Assembly (NCBI GenBank): GCA_944391285.1
Contig: CALXSY010000009.1
Location: 1-64,000 of the forward strand
Source: an uncultured Clostridia bacterium
GTDB lineage: Bacteria > Bacillota > Peptococcia > Peptococcales > Peptococcaceae
Reading direction: 5' to 3'
Length of the DNA: 64,000 nucleotides
In this document: piece after piece, positions 22,389-29,297 of the stretch
Layout: each line of letters opens with the position of its first letter
Position numbering within the stretch: position 1 is the first letter of the stretch
Program-made: the position numbers and the translations under genes
The notes under the pieces: model-generated
What the model was told of the DNA's origin: nothing
Database searches by the model: none
What the model saw: only the letters and a program-made list of their open reading frames with translations

Positions 22389-22429
22389 TAGATTAAGAAT
22401 AAAATGCTTAAATATTGGAGGCTGAAAAG

Positions 22430-23614
22430 ATGCTGAGCTTGACAAAAATGTTAACCAAAGATGTGTATTACGGCGATGAATTGCGTTATACAAAGGAATC
22501 ACATAACCAAAAAAACGGCGTAAGTGTAGGCAGAGGACCGGTAGTTTCCTGGAATTACACCCGCACCTGCAACTTAAAATGTAAGCACTGTTATTCTTCT
22601 TCCGAGTTAAAGGAGTATGAAAATGAATTGACTACTGAAGAAGCGTTAAAATTTATTGATGATTGCGCTGAGTTTAAAGTGCCGACTATTCTATTCAGCG
22701 GCGGTGAGCCTTTGATGCGCAAAGATTTCTTTGAATTGGCGGAGCATGCGGCAAAATTAGGCGTGCGCCCGACTTTGTCCACCAACGGCACTCTGATTAC
22801 TCCGGAAGTGGCTAAAAAAATCAAAGAAATCGGCGTCGGCTATGTCGGCATCAGCATTGACGGCTTAAGAGAGGTCAATGACGAGTTCCGCGGGGTCAAA
22901 GGTGCTTTTGACAAAGCCTTAGAAGGTATTCGCAACTGCCGGGCTGTCGGTCAAAGGGTAGGCTTGCGTTTTACCATCAACAAAAACAATTATCAGGATA
23001 TCAGCGCCATCTTTGATTTGATGGAAGAGGAAAATATCGACCGTATCTGCTTCTATCACTTGGTTTATTCCGGCAGAGGCGGAGCAATCGTGAAAGATGA
23101 TTTGACCCATGAGGAAACCAGGGAAGTAATGGATTTAATCATTGACAAGGTGGAGGATTTCCACAAAAGAGGCTTGAAAAAAGAAGTATTGATGGTGGAT
23201 AATCATGCTGACGGAGTTTATCTGTATCTTAAATATAAGGACAAAGACCCCGAAAGAGCCAAATATATTTTAAATCTTCTGCGCATTAACGGCGGCAACC
23301 GCTCCGGCATTGCTTTTTCCAATGTGGATAATCAGGGCAATGTCCATTGCGACCAGTTTACTCAGCATCATACCTTCGGCAATGTCAAGGAACGCCCCTT
23401 TAAAGAGATTTGGTGCGATACTTCCAATCCGTTATTGGCAGGCTTGAAGGATCGCAAAAGTTTATTAAAAGGACGCTGTCAGACTTGCAGCTGGCTGGAT
23501 ATCTGTAACGGCAATTTCCGTGCCCGCGGTGAGGCTGTGAGCGGTGATTTCTGGGGATTTGACCCGGCGTGCTATTTAACTGACGAAGAATGTGCATTAA
23601 AAGTAGAAGACTGA
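22430..23614 (+). CDS. ahbC: AhbC/NirJ1: 12,18-didecarboxysiroheme deacetylase, radical SAM
   Basis: A 394-residue radical SAM protein. The cluster motif CNLKCKHC and FSGGEPLMRKDF define the radical SAM core, and a C-terminal SPASM-like Cys set (CQTCSWLDICNG) suggests an auxiliary Fe-S cluster. AhbC removes the acetate side chains of didecarboxysiroheme to give Fe-coproporphyrin III. Assignment rests on resemblance to AhbC/NirJ1 and on the neighbouring ahbD, ahbA and ahbB genes. ATG 22430 is chosen since TTGGAGG at 22415-22421 is its ribosome binding site. Confidence 0.88.
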   Translation: MLSLTKMLTKDVYYGDELRYTKESHNQKNGVSVGRGPVVSWNYTRTCNLKCKHCYSSSELKEYENELTTEEALKFIDDCAEFKVPTILFSGGEPLMRKDFFELAEHAAKLGVRPTLSTNGTLITPEVAKKIKEIGVGYVGISIDGLREVNDEFRGVKGAFDKALEGIRNCRAVGQRVGLRFTINKNNYQDISAIFDLMEEENIDRICFYHLVYSGRGGAIVKDDLTHEETREVMDLIIDKVEDFHKRGLKKEVLMVDNHADGVYLYLKYKDKDPERAKYILNLLRINGGNRSGIAFSNVDNQGNVHCDQFTQHHTFGNVKERPFKEIWCDTSNPLLAGLKDRKSLLKGRCQTCSWLDICNGNFRARGEAVSGDFWGFDPACYLTDEECALKVED

Positions 23615-23624
23615 GGTGATACAG

Positions 23625-24611
23625 ATGATAATGTCTTGGAATACCACCAATAACTGCAATATGTTCTGCGCCCATTGCTATCGTGAATCGGGAGAAAAGG
23701 CGCAAGGAGAGCTGGATACAACGCAGGCTAAAAAGTTAATCTCAGAAGTAGCTAAAGCAGGATTTAAAATTATGATTTTTTCCGGCGGCGAGCCGATGAC
23801 CAGAGAGGATATCTATGAATTAGTCGCTTATGCTAAGGAAATGGGCTTAAGACCGGTTTTGGGCAGCAATGGTTCATTAATTACACCAGAAGCGGCACAA
23901 AAATTAAAAGCAGCAGGCTTGGCAGGAGCCGGCATCAGCTTAGACAGCTTGGATAAGGATAAGCATGACAAACTGCGCCGTTTGGACGGGGCGTGGGAGC
24001 TGGCAGTTGCCGGCATGAAAAACTGCATTAATGCTGGAATCCGCACCCAGATTCACACTACGGTGATGGATTGGAATGCCAATGAAATCGAAGATATCAT
24101 GGATTTTGCCGTGGAAATCGGAGCCAGCGCTCACCATATATTTTTCTTAGTGCCGACCGGCAGAGGCGAGGAAATAGTTGACCAAGCTTTAAAGCGGGAT
24201 GAGTACGAAGAAATTTTGGTGCGCATCATGAAGAAAGCACAAACAGTGCCCATCGAGGTTAAACCAACCTGTGCTCCCCAGTTTATGCGGGTAGCTAAGC
24301 AATTAGGCATGGATTTGCGTTTCTCCAAAGGCTGTCTGGCAGGTATCAGCTATTGCATCATCAGCCCTAAAGGCGATGTACAACCATGCGCTTACATGAA
24401 AATGGAAATCGGCAATGTCAAGGATACGCCCTTTGATGAGATTTGGCGGGACAATGAAACATTTAAAATTTTGCGCACCGAAAATTATAAAGACGGCTGC
24501 GGAACTTGCGGATTTAACAAGAAATGCGGTGGCTGCCGTGCCAGAGCGGCTTATTATCATAAAGGCGATTACATGGCGGAGGATCCGTTATGTATCTTAA
24601 ACAAACGCTAA
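23625..24611 (+). CDS. ahbD: AhbD/NirJ2: heme synthase, radical SAM
   Basis: A 328-residue radical SAM protein. CNMFCAHC binds the SAM-cleaving 4Fe-4S cluster; FSGGEPMTRED follows, and CGTCGFNKKCGGCRARA near the C terminus fits an auxiliary cluster. AhbD oxidatively decarboxylates two propionates of Fe-coproporphyrin III to the vinyl groups of heme b, the anaerobic last step. ATG 23625 is preferred over GTG 23616 because GAGGTGA then serves as ribosome binding site. The paralogous ahbC is 10 bases upstream. Confidence 0.87.
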   Translation: MIMSWNTTNNCNMFCAHCYRESGEKAQGELDTTQAKKLISEVAKAGFKIMIFSGGEPMTREDIYELVAYAKEMGLRPVLGSNGSLITPEAAQKLKAAGLAGAGISLDSLDKDKHDKLRRLDGAWELAVAGMKNCINAGIRTQIHTTVMDWNANEIEDIMDFAVEIGASAHHIFFLVPTGRGEEIVDQALKRDEYEEILVRIMKKAQTVPIEVKPTCAPQFMRVAKQLGMDLRFSKGCLAGISYCIISPKGDVQPCAYMKMEIGNVKDTPFDEIWRDNETFKILRTENYKDGCGTCGFNKKCGGCRARAAYYHKGDYMAEDPLCILNKR

Positions 24612-24621
24612 GGGGTAGAGT

Positions 24622-25089
24622 ATGTATAAAATAGACGAGGTTGATAAAAGAATACTGATGATTTTACAGCGCGGCATTCCTATTACCAGCCGCCCTTATC
24701 TTGCTATGGCAGAGGAATTGGGAGATGTGAGTGAGGATGAGGTAATCCGCCGTATTGATGTCTTAAAGCGGGAAAATATCATCCGCCGGATGTCCGGTTT
24801 TTTCAACTCCCGCAAATTAGGCTATGTTTCGGTTTTGTGTGCGGTAGAGGTAGAGCCTGATAAAATTGATGATGTGGCAGAGTTAATCAATAAATTTCCC
24901 GGCATTACCCATAATTATCTCAGGGAAAACAAGTATAATATGTGGTTCACCGTTATCGCCATCGACCAGGAAACCTTGGATAAAATCGTTGATATCATTG
25001 ACGAGCATCCGGCAGTTAAGCGAGTATTGCGCTTTTATACGGGGCATCGCTTTAAAATCGATGTGACCTTTGATTTGGGGGTGAAATGA
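24622..25089 (+). CDS. ahbA: Siroheme decarboxylase subunit AhbA
   Basis: A 155-residue AsnC/Lrp-like protein with an N-terminal helix-turn-helix-type fold and a C-terminal RAM-like domain (LRENKYNMWFTVIA). In the Ahb pathway such proteins act as enzymes, not regulators: the AhbA-AhbB complex decarboxylates siroheme to 12,18-didecarboxysiroheme. The order after ahbC and ahbD, and a 4-base overlap with ahbB, support this role over a transcription factor. Confidence 0.87.
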   Translation: MYKIDEVDKRILMILQRGIPITSRPYLAMAEELGDVSEDEVIRRIDVLKRENIIRRMSGFFNSRKLGYVSVLCAVEVEPDKIDDVAELINKFPGITHNYLRENKYNMWFTVIAIDQETLDKIVDIIDEHPAVKRVLRFYTGHRFKIDVTFDLGVK

Positions 25090-25580
25090 TGCTGAGCGAA
25101 AAACATCAAGCGATAGTCAGAGCTTTGCAAAACGATTTGCCCTTGGTAAAGGAGCCTTATAAGGAAGTTGCGGAGTCTATCGGCATGACCGAAGAGGAGC
25201 TTTTGCAAGGCATTGCTGAATTGCAGGAAATGGGCTGTTTGAAACGAATTTCTATCGCTTTAAGACACAACAACGTTGGCTACACTATCAATGTTATGAC
25301 AGTTTGGGACGTGCCGCAAGAGGAGATTGAGCGAATCGGCAAAAAGGTAGCTGCTCACCCTAAGGTAACTCATTGCTACGAGCGCAAGAAAGATGTGGAG
25401 TTTGATTATAACTTATACGCTATGGTTCACGCGCAAAGCGAGGAAGAGTATCAGAAGCTGATAGCGGATTTGTATGAGATAATCAAACCTCTTAAGCATA
25501 TGGAATTAAGAACAACCAAAGAACTGAAAAAAATCGGCATGAAGTATTTTATGGGCAACGAATTGGCTGATTTTGCGTAA
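25086..25580 (+). CDS. ahbB: Siroheme decarboxylase subunit AhbB
   Basis: A 164-residue AsnC/Lrp-like partner of AhbA. It carries the AhbB-type features RISIALRHNNVGYTINVMTVWDV and THCYERKKD...YNLYAMVHA. It starts within the end of ahbA, indicating translational coupling and equal production of the two subunits. It closes a four-gene set able to turn siroheme into heme without oxygen. No earlier tetrapyrrole genes are in the window. Confidence 0.87.
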   Translation: MMLSEKHQAIVRALQNDLPLVKEPYKEVAESIGMTEEELLQGIAELQEMGCLKRISIALRHNNVGYTINVMTVWDVPQEEIERIGKKVAAHPKVTHCYERKKDVEFDYNLYAMVHAQSEEEYQKLIADLYEIIKPLKHMELRTTKELKKIGMKYFMGNELADFA

Positions 25581-26058: not shown

Positions 26059-26088
26059 AGACGACTGATAAAATCGGTCGTCTTTTTT
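26059..26088 (+). terminator. Rho-independent terminator after the DUF3788 gene
   Basis: An 11-bp stem (26059-26069 with 26073-26083, one wobble), a three-base loop and a T tract. Confidence 0.88.
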
Positions 26089-26171: not shown

Positions 26172-26202
26172 AAAACCACGTGTGGAAATAAGAGGTGAAA
26201 AA

Positions 26203-27999
26203 ATGGAAAGGCAAATTTTTGGTCAGACCGATAATTTAAACAAGCGAATAATGGAGCGATTGGAATATTTGGCTGACTTAAAATCGCCGAAAACTCAGAT
26301 TGCTTCAGCGGAAATTGTCGAGGTGATGAGCGAAATCACCCGGGAGATAAAAAAAGAAATCGCCATTTATCTTGACCGCAGCGGTCAGATAGTGATGGTA
26401 AGCGTGGGAAGTGACTCCACAGCGCCATTATTGGAAATGTCGAAAAAGAGAAAAGATTGGGGACTGACTGCTTTGCGAGCGGTACATACCCATCCCAACG
26501 GTGACTGCCGCTTGAGTGCTCCTGATTTGAGCGCATTAAGCAATTTACGCTTGGATATGATGTGTGCCATTGGCGTAGGCGAAAAGAATGTAAGCTTTTC
26601 AGTAGCTGTGTTGAATGTGCGGGACGGGGAATTGGTTAGAGAAGCGAGAGTGTGGCAAAATTTATCCCGAGAACAGTTTTACCAGTTAAATCCCGTTTTA
26701 CTGGCAGGAGAGATAGAAAAAGAGTTAAACAATAAAATGCTCCACAAGGTAAGCGAGGAGGAAGAACGGGTTATTACTGTTTTAGTTTTGCCAAATCGCT
26801 TAAGTCAGCAAGAAGAAACAGAGCGCCGAGAGGAACTGAAAAATCTGGCAGAAAGCGCCGGCTTAAAGGTTGTAGGAGAGCTCATCCAGCATAAGGATAA
26901 GCCGGACGGAGTATTTTGCTTAGGCAAAGGCAAGCTGGAAGAATTGGCGATGTTAGCGCAGAATACCGATGCTTCGTGTATCATCTTTGATAATGGTCTA
27001 TCGCCGGCGCAGGAAAATAACCTTAATCGTTTCTTAGGAAAAAAGGTTATCGATAAAAATACTTTGATTTTAGATATCTTTGCCGCTCGGGCTAAAACTC
27101 GTGAGGGGCAGTTGCAAGTAGAGGCAGCGCAGCTGAATTATTTATTGCCACGTTTGATTGGGCAGGGCGTGAGTATGTCACGATTAGGCGGTGGAGTGGG
27201 AACCCGTGGTCCCGGTGAAACTAAGCTGGAAACCGACCGCCGTCATATCCGCCGCAGGCTGGATAATGTGCGCCGTGAGTTAAACGAAGTGCGCAAGCAA
27301 AGGCAGATTCAGCGGCAGAAGCGTAAAAAACAACAGATACCTTTGGTGGCTTTGGTGGGGTATACCAATGCCGGTAAGTCGTCTTTATTGAATGCTTTGA
27401 CAGGAGCGGATATTTATGCTCAAGATCAGCTCTTTGCTACGTTAGATCCGACAGTGAGAGTATTGAAACTTGAGCAAAGGGAAGTTTTACTGAGCGATAC
27501 GGTAGGATTTATCCGTGATTTGCCAGAGGATTTGGTAGAGGCTTTCGAGGCGACCTTGGAAGAATTAAAAGAAGCGGATCTTTTGCTGCATGTGGTAGAT
27601 GCTAAAGGCGAAAATTACAAAACGCAAATCAAAAGCGTAGAGAAAATATTAAAGCAAGTGGGTGTGCTGGATAAACCATCGATTTATGTGTTTAATAAAA
27701 TTGATGCCTTAGAGGAAATTCCGCCATTTGGCGTAGAGGGAGAATATATTTGCGTTTCGGCTAAAGAGGGAATCGGCTTAGAAGAGCTGAAAAAAATAAT
27801 CTTGCAGAAAATATTCGGCACGAAAAAGAAATATAAAATATTCCTGCCCTTTATCGAGGCTGGATTGATGAATAAGTTTTATAATTTAGGGCAAGTGGAA
27901 GAAATCGACTATACCGAAGAAGGCACAGTTTTTACTTTAATCAGCGAAGAAGATGTGCCGGAAAAATTAAAAAAATATATCACCGCAGAAATATTATAA
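26203..27999 (+). CDS. hflX: GTPase HflX with an N-terminal JAMM/RadC-like domain
   Basis: A 598-residue protein. Residues about 186-360 are the HflX N-domain and glycine-rich linker (SRLGGGVGTRGPGETKLE), and the G domain has P-loop GYTNAGKSS (386-394), DTVGFIRDLP and NKID. HflX splits stalled or hibernating ribosomes. Residues 1-185 are an additional domain absent from the well-known short HflX proteins; it contains His95-Thr-His97-Pro, Ser105 and Asp108 in the exact JAMM spacing (HxH-x7-SxxD), with Glu52 as the likely upstream acid. ATG 26203 is chosen because AGAGGTGA precedes it. Confidence 0.94.
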   Translation: MERQIFGQTDNLNKRIMERLEYLADLKSPKTQIASAEIVEVMSEITREIKKEIAIYLDRSGQIVMVSVGSDSTAPLLEMSKKRKDWGLTALRAVHTHPNGDCRLSAPDLSALSNLRLDMMCAIGVGEKNVSFSVAVLNVRDGELVREARVWQNLSREQFYQLNPVLLAGEIEKELNNKMLHKVSEEEERVITVLVLPNRLSQQEETERREELKNLAESAGLKVVGELIQHKDKPDGVFCLGKGKLEELAMLAQNTDASCIIFDNGLSPAQENNLNRFLGKKVIDKNTLILDIFAARAKTREGQLQVEAAQLNYLLPRLIGQGVSMSRLGGGVGTRGPGETKLETDRRHIRRRLDNVRRELNEVRKQRQIQRQKRKKQQIPLVALVGYTNAGKSSLLNALTGADIYAQDQLFATLDPTVRVLKLEQREVLLSDTVGFIRDLPEDLVEAFEATLEELKEADLLLHVVDAKGENYKTQIKSVEKILKQVGVLDKPSIYVFNKIDALEEIPPFGVEGEYICVSAKEGIGLEELKKIILQKIFGTKKKYKIFLPFIEAGLMNKFYNLGQVEEIDYTEEGTVFTLISEEDVPEKLKKYITAEIL

Positions 28000-28031: not shown

Positions 28032-29297
28032 ATGCAAGCTTTTTTTCAAATGTTACAAGAGCAATACCAAATTTCCGACAGCGTCATTGCCCAAATGAGC
28101 GCCTGCTACGAAAAGGTGCAAAAACCTTGGGCTAAGGTTAGTGAAATCACCGCCGCTAATCAAATCAAGGTTTTAGCTGCCTTTCAAAAAAAACAAGCCG
28201 GCGACTTTCATCTTAATGGCTCTACCGGTTATGGCTATGGCGATGTGGGCAGAGATGTCTTTGAGTTAATCTGGGCAGATGTGTTTAAAGCGGAAAAAGC
28301 CTTGGTCAGAGCCAGCATCTTGTCCGGCACTCATGCGATAGCCATCGCCTTGTTGGGCAATTTAAAGGCGGGCGATGAGTTTGTGTCCATCAGCGGCTTG
28401 CCTTACGATACCTTATTAAAGGTAATCGGCAAGAACAACGAGCCGGGAACACTTCAGGCAATGGGCGTTACTCATAAGGTAGTGGATTTAAAGAATGATG
28501 ACTTTGATTATGAAGCGATTGCTCAAGCAGTCAAAAAAGGCACGAAGATGGTCTGTATTCAGCGCTCCAGAGGCTATGACTGGCGCAAATCGCTAACTAT
28601 CGCTAAAATTGCTAAAGTTGTAAAGTTTGTTAAAGAAATAGATGAAAATATCATCGTCTTTGTCGATAATTGCTACGGTGAGTTTGTGGAATTACAAGAG
28701 CCGTTGGAAGTAGGGGCAGATTTGATTGCCGGGTCACTAATCAAAAATCCGGGCGGAACATTAGCTCCTCGTGGCGGCTATGTAGCCGGCAGAGCGGATT
28801 TGGTGGATTTAGCGGCTATTCGCCTCTCAGCACCGGGCATTGCCGGTGATGTAGGCTCAGCACTGGATTTCAACCGCTTGGCTTACCAAGGATTGTTTAT
28901 GGCGCCGCTAATCGTGGAGCAGGCGCTGAAAGGGGCAATCTTTGCCGCTTGCTTCTTGGAGGATATGGGGTATAAGGTTTCTCCGCGCTACGATGAGGAG
29001 CGGGCGGATATAATTCAGGCGTTAATGTTAGGCGATGCGGAGACTATCCGCAAATATTGCCGTGGTATTCAAAAAGCTTCGCCCTTGGATTCTTATGTAA
29101 CGCCTTACGATGCTCCTTTGCCGGGGTATGATGATGCTGTTATCATGGCAGGCGGAACCTTTGTGCAGGGTTCGTCAATCGAACTAAGTGTGGACGCACC
29201 GATGAGAGAGCCATTCATCGCTTATATGCAAGGCGGCATCTCATTAGCTCATGTGATGACCGGCGTAGCTTTGGCAGCCGGAGAAATGGAGAAATAA
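28032..29297 (+). CDS. ynbB: YnbB: methionine gamma-lyase/aluminium-resistance family PLP enzyme
   Basis: A 421-residue fold-type I PLP-dependent protein of the family annotated as aluminium resistance or methionine gamma-lyase. The N-terminal GSTGYGYGDVGRD and the probable PLP-lysine region GSLIKNPGGTLAPRGGYVAG are characteristic. The true substrate is not established. It follows hflX as in Bacillus (hflX/ynbA-ynbB), which supports the assignment. GGAGAGAG precedes the ATG. Confidence 0.9.
   Translation: MQAFFQMLQEQYQISDSVIAQMSACYEKVQKPWAKVSEITAANQIKVLAAFQKKQAGDFHLNGSTGYGYGDVGRDVFELIWADVFKAEKALVRASILSGTHAIAIALLGNLKAGDEFVSISGLPYDTLLKVIGKNNEPGTLQAMGVTHKVVDLKNDDFDYEAIAQAVKKGTKMVCIQRSRGYDWRKSLTIAKIAKVVKFVKEIDENIIVFVDNCYGEFVELQEPLEVGADLIAGSLIKNPGGTLAPRGGYVAGRADLVDLAAIRLSAPGIAGDVGSALDFNRLAYQGLFMAPLIVEQALKGAIFAACFLEDMGYKVSPRYDEERADIIQALMLGDAETIRKYCRGIQKASPLDSYVTPYDAPLPGYDDAVIMAGGTFVQGSSIELSVDAPMREPFIAYMQGGISLAHVMTGVALAAGEMEK

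Follow-up and report, generated by a model that had tools for sequence, protein, structure and literature searches.

The stretch of DNA analysed here (the window, 64,000 nucleotides from an uncultured Clostridia bacterium) carries on its forward strand an hflX gene of 598 codons (26203..27999). HflX, a stress factor of wide occurrence, splits ribosomes and influences tolerance to antibiotics. The open reading frame begins with the ATG at 26203, which is preceded by a ribosome-binding site, AGAGGTG (26191..26197), and a GTG at 26182 is a possible alternative start further upstream; a terminator-like hairpin (26059..26083) upstream of the gene rests on a consensus scan only. Membership of the HflX family follows from TIGR03156, where the translated protein scores 452.6 bits against a cut-off of 216.75, and Pfam places the HflX N-terminal domain (PF13167) at residues 208–294 (26824..27084), the helical middle domain (PF16360) at 296–374 (27088..27324), and the GTPase domain (PF01926) at 382–499 (27346..27699). 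A genome search found no other HflX in the source genome. The HflX part starts at about residue 189 and is complete, with a fold that matches ribosome-bound HflX and HflXr structures at 41–43% identity; the likeness to 8uua, 8a57, 7yla, and 5ady takes in the N-terminal, helical, GTPase, and C-terminal domains (residues ~189–598). The chains in those structures, however, are only about 414–468 residues long and have no JAMM domain, whereas here an additional, separate domain of 190 residues stands in front. The protein is best explained as a normal ribosome-splitting HflX, its GTP-dependent splitting of 70S particles being inferred, to which an N-terminal JAMM domain has been added.

The additional region, residues 1–190 including a linker helix (26203..26772), is named by no model in Pfam, NCBIfam, PHROGs, or PADLOC, and its score for Prok-JAB (PF14464) stays below the gathering score (13.6 bits vs 25). 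Searching the PDB with a single sequence returned only noise, and a profile was needed. With the domain profile, the best match among PDB sequences is the AMSH-like protease Sst2 (E 0.0017), in an alignment that covers the motif, and 48 non-redundant long HflX proteins give weak Pfam matches to Prok-JAB (34/48, counted at E up to 1) and RadC (24/48), with best E values of about 1e-4 and 2e-4. Structure prediction for residues 1–190 with AlphaFold2, using an alignment of the 48 sequences, gave a mean pLDDT of 90.2 and a pTM of 0.86. The top Foldseek matches of this model in the PDB are almost exclusively JAB/MPN proteins, which places the predicted structure in that fold: RadC (2qlc, probability 0.99), PfJAMM1 (5ld9, 0.96, TM 0.55 on the target), and Sst2 (4msj, 0.96), together with AMSH, CSN5, Cap3, and Prp8. 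These matches are distant (E 2e-3 to 5e-2, TM-scores about 0.2–0.55), and none reaches E 0.001. Taken at the level of sequence and predicted structure, the identification of residues 1–190 as a JAMM (MPN+) domain is supported by fold, profiles, and five conserved residues, in agreement with the earlier note, which had proposed that HflX is fused to a complete JAMM metal-site domain; zinc binding and hydrolase activity are inferred.

The same note had called the domain RadC-like, a label that holds for the superfamily but not for RadC itself. Profile–profile alignment with RadC (hhalign, 93%, E 2.7e-7) sets the HxH...S..D motif in register, and the two share the JAMM fold. However, RadC has the motif HNHPSGxxxPSxxD where the fused HflX has HTHPxGxxxLSxxD, the RadC N-terminal region is missing, and the PF04002 and TIGR00608 cut-offs are not met; a separate, true RadC is encoded in the source genome. 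Since RadC is both the fold match of highest probability and the strongest profile–profile match tested, and since the HflX partner is located on rRNA, it is conceivable that the domain acts in a RadC-like manner on RNA (rRNA, tRNA, or peptidyl-tRNA) rather than on a peptide bond. We consider this improbable, because the motif is nearer to that of AMSH (HTHP) than to that of RadC (HNHPSG) and the best sequence match of solved structure is a protease, and to our knowledge the biochemical function of RadC is itself not settled. Sst2 and AMSH, which are JAMM deubiquitinases, have in common with the fused domain an HTHP-x-type HxH...S..D motif and a fold probability of up to 0.96, but the identity is only about 13%, the domain of the fused HflX sits on a ribosomal GTPase, and we know of no ubiquitin system in this kind of organism.

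The spacing E...H-x-H-x(7)-S-x(2)-D is exactly that of the JAMM (MPN+) superfamily motif. The residues lie precisely where they had been claimed to lie: Glu52 (26356..26358), the expected catalytic glutamate, His95 (26485..26487), His97 (26491..26493), and Asp108 (26524..26526), the expected zinc ligands, and Ser105 (26515..26517), the expected catalytic serine. The suggestion that Glu52 occupies the acidic position of RadC is likewise supported, as the profile–profile alignment pairs it with the glutamate that is invariant in RadC. Between two core strands ahead of the HxH motif, residues 69–90 (26407..26472) form a loop that is predicted to be mobile from its low pLDDT and that presumably corresponds in position to the Ins-1 loop of JAMM proteases. 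All five site residues are invariant in the 48 non-redundant long HflX proteins, which argues that the motif is not a product of chance; the full invariant set comprises E52, R59, G61, G69, R92, H95, T96, H97, S105, D108, and D118. Because this set had been gathered with patterns that included HTHP, the count was repeated on members retrieved from whole genomes by profile search alone, 41 of 47 of which (non-redundant) keep the H..H..S..D pattern. Invariance of H95, H97, S105, and D108 in these 41 holds by construction, since they were sorted by that pattern, but E52 is invariant in them too, and only ten positions are invariant across the whole domain. Among all 155 sequences gathered, the expected residue is present in 142 (H95), 143 (H97), 149 (S105), 147 (D108), and 150 (E52) cases. 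The conservation across long HflX proteins that the earlier note had put forward as a check on its proposal is thus borne out, and its other check, prediction of the fold of this region, also had a positive outcome.

The sample covered 398 genomes of the phylum. HflX itself was found in 304 of them, and the domain in 72, in frames consistent with fusion to HflX (profile search, tallied by hand; one of the 72 ends at a contig edge after 324 residues). Of these 72, about 59 belong to lineages with an intact site, and nearly all of the 59 were read. No free-standing copy of the domain was detected by profile search in the 398 genomes, from which we argue that the domain works with HflX. An early profile had given matches outside HflX in 13 further genomes (E 6e-6 to 1e-3, open reading frames of about 230–300 residues), and these were rejected as free-standing homologues after the two that were inspected proved to be RadC. 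On a tree of the HflX core with 130 rows, the intact-JAMM label requires 11 changes, where shuffled labels need 42.6; scoring the domain as present in whatever version likewise gives 11. HflX proteins lacking the domain occur inside fused groups, one of them in the window's own family (G016, locus L197) and another (L208) as sister of a row with a degenerate site. Fusobacterium, too, has the fusion, in a 600-residue protein annotated only as 'GTPase HflX'. Probably, the fusion is old in Clostridia-type Bacillota and has mostly been inherited, with repeated losses and a transfer to Fusobacterium, although many deep branches are weak. An origin from phages or plasmids was rejected: the only such carriers are one viral contig and two Fusobacterium records, one of which, at 2.1 Mb, is probably a chromosome, and PHROGs and PADLOC returned nothing specific. 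On a 219-kb Fusobacterium animalis replicon deposited as plasmid pSB029A (locus L196, 149561–158007), the fused hflX adjoins genes for shikimate kinase and efflux and is annotated only as GTPase HflX. A Selenomonas contig (L112) has a 185-residue JAMM open reading frame and the HflX core in separate frames, reflecting either a frameshift or an assembly error.

In 13 of the 72 fused genomes the metal site is degraded. These belong to families f45, in which HTH has become YLT, f88, in which it has become FTR or similar, and f96; the HflX of a further family, f87 (L212), was missed by the profile and has an N-terminal domain that appears by eye to be still more decayed. The loci at which the domain has lost its metal site are L126–L129, L132, L133–L140, and L212, and the HflX tree requires at least three separate origins for such forms. 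Since the domain can outlive its metal site and persists without it in several lineages, catalysis cannot be its sole job, and a second, structural role can be argued. The main rival explanation takes this further, regarding the domain as a wedge or anchor without catalytic function that binds the ribosome and aids HflX docking and 70S splitting, with the metal, where present, being structural. Precedents exist in MPN domains of eukaryotes that lack a metal site, such as Prp8 (one of the Foldseek matches), and serve as scaffolds, and in the N-terminal extension of mycobacterial HflX, which helps to disorder rRNA and to split ribosomes efficiently (PMC12493154). We nevertheless regard a purely non-catalytic role as unlikely, though it remains a serious contender, because E52 and S105 are strictly conserved in most lineages. 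Neither residue is a metal ligand in JAMM enzymes, and their conservation across wide divergence favours catalysis over a structural zinc.

On balance, and only just, we favour the view that the domain is a zinc hydrolase, most likely of the peptidase type, that is carried to the ribosome by HflX; catalysis is unproven and the substrate cannot be named. That the sequence is related to catalytic JAMMs (AMSH-like Sst2) as well as to RadC counts for a hydrolase, whereas the degenerate sites in several lineages, the lack of a conserved partner gene, and the modest Foldseek TM-scores count against it. The JAMM enzymes whose chemistry is known cut peptide or isopeptide bonds, and we therefore prefer a reaction of the peptidase type, with a protein associated with the ribosome as its target. 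In the mechanism that we propose, HflX would bring the JAMM domain to that side of the 50S subunit which faces the interface, and a single zinc ion, inferred to be both present and catalytic in the absence of zinc or activity data, would promote hydrolysis of an amide-type bond, such as a peptide or isopeptide bond, in a target associated with the ribosome. That target would be exposed when the stalled ribosome is split, and may be a protein of the ribosome itself, another protein bound to it, or a chain that is nascent or carries a tag. HflX binds to the interface face of the 50S subunit, where it lies over the A site and overlaps the P site (PMC9067457), and the N-terminal extension of the mycobacterial protein contacts uL16 and H38 and extends to the H69–H71 junction (PMC12493154). 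Together, these placements make it plausible that the N-terminal JAMM domain lies near the A/P-site side of the interface, although its position is not fixed in the model of the full-length fusion (pTM 0.67). Going one step further, the fusion could represent a ribosome-tethered JAMM metalloprotease in a large set of bacteria, coupling splitting by HflX to protein cleavage or deconjugation on the stalled ribosome, a proposal that we hold tentatively and with somewhat less than even confidence. If true, the coupling would be akin in kind to that seen where JAMM enzymes of eukaryotes form part of larger machines, for example, the proteasome lid.

The genes around hflX, compared for 80 loci plus the window, include no conserved partner that hints at a substrate. 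Directly downstream in the window is a YnbB-like gene of 421 codons (28032..29297, forward strand), which we take to be methionine gamma-lyase-like and which recurs beside fused hflX at 42 loci; upstream of fused hflX, an AAA+ (SpoVK-like) gene is found at 16 loci. Both presumably belong to the ordinary hflX neighbourhood of Firmicutes. Bacterial JAB domains often partner ubiquitin-like proteins, and E1-like ThiF-family proteins are encoded in 59/59 intact-fusion genomes, so the domain might conceivably strip ribosomal proteins of a ubiquitin-like tag of the ThiS/MoaD type. Neither a ubiquitin-like protein nor an E1 is recurrent across the 80 loci and the window, however, and a JAB system with linked ubiquitin-like protein is thus not in evidence. 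Furthermore, ThiS/MoaD went undetected in 15 of the 59 genomes, the source genome included, the match in four more is weak and lies inside a frame of about 730–750 residues, and many of the ThiF-family proteins are, we assume, tRNA-modification enzymes. A ubiquitin-like partner was accordingly rejected for the source genome, and removal of such a tag seems to us very improbable. Bacillota and Fusobacteria, the groups in which the fusion occurs, are also phyla with the protease Prp and an extended bL27, which raises the idea that the domain replaces Prp in processing the bL27 N-terminus. We give this hardly any credence, and rejected it, since 41 of 53 fusion genomes, the source genome among them, have Prp. 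Elsewhere in the window, at 22415–25580, two radical-SAM genes are followed by two Lrp/AsnC-like genes (AhbA/AhbB-type, by eye), a set that is suggestive of an alternative haem or haem d1 pathway.

HflX and JAMM domains are each known, but we did not find their combination in domain libraries, and searches of the open literature for HflX together with JAB, JAMM, MPN, or RadC turned up no relevant paper, which does not prove that none exists; the few co-occurrences returned were judged from titles and counts to be incidental ('jammed', Mycoplasma pneumoniae locus tags). A 2025 review notes that N-terminal HflX extensions also occur, without having been identified, in several Clostridium and Paenibacillus species, and asks whether extensions found beyond the mycobacteria work in the same way as the mycobacterial one, which is likewise N-terminal but short (39–58 residues) compared to a folded JAMM domain of 190 residues (PMC12493154). 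For many Clostridia-type bacteria and Fusobacterium, the extension can now be identified as a JAMM domain with a mostly intact site, possibly an as yet unstudied enzyme that is brought to stalled ribosomes. Point mutants of E52, H95, H97, and D108 are predicted to uncouple the splitting of ribosomes from the hydrolysis that is proposed here, with the relatives that have a degenerate site or lack the domain as natural controls. HflX of the same phylum has been extended at its other end as well: in family f55 (L184, L188, L190, and L193), a DusB-like tRNA-dihydrouridine synthase, assigned by eye from motifs, is fused C-terminally to HflX in a frame of 740–830 residues.
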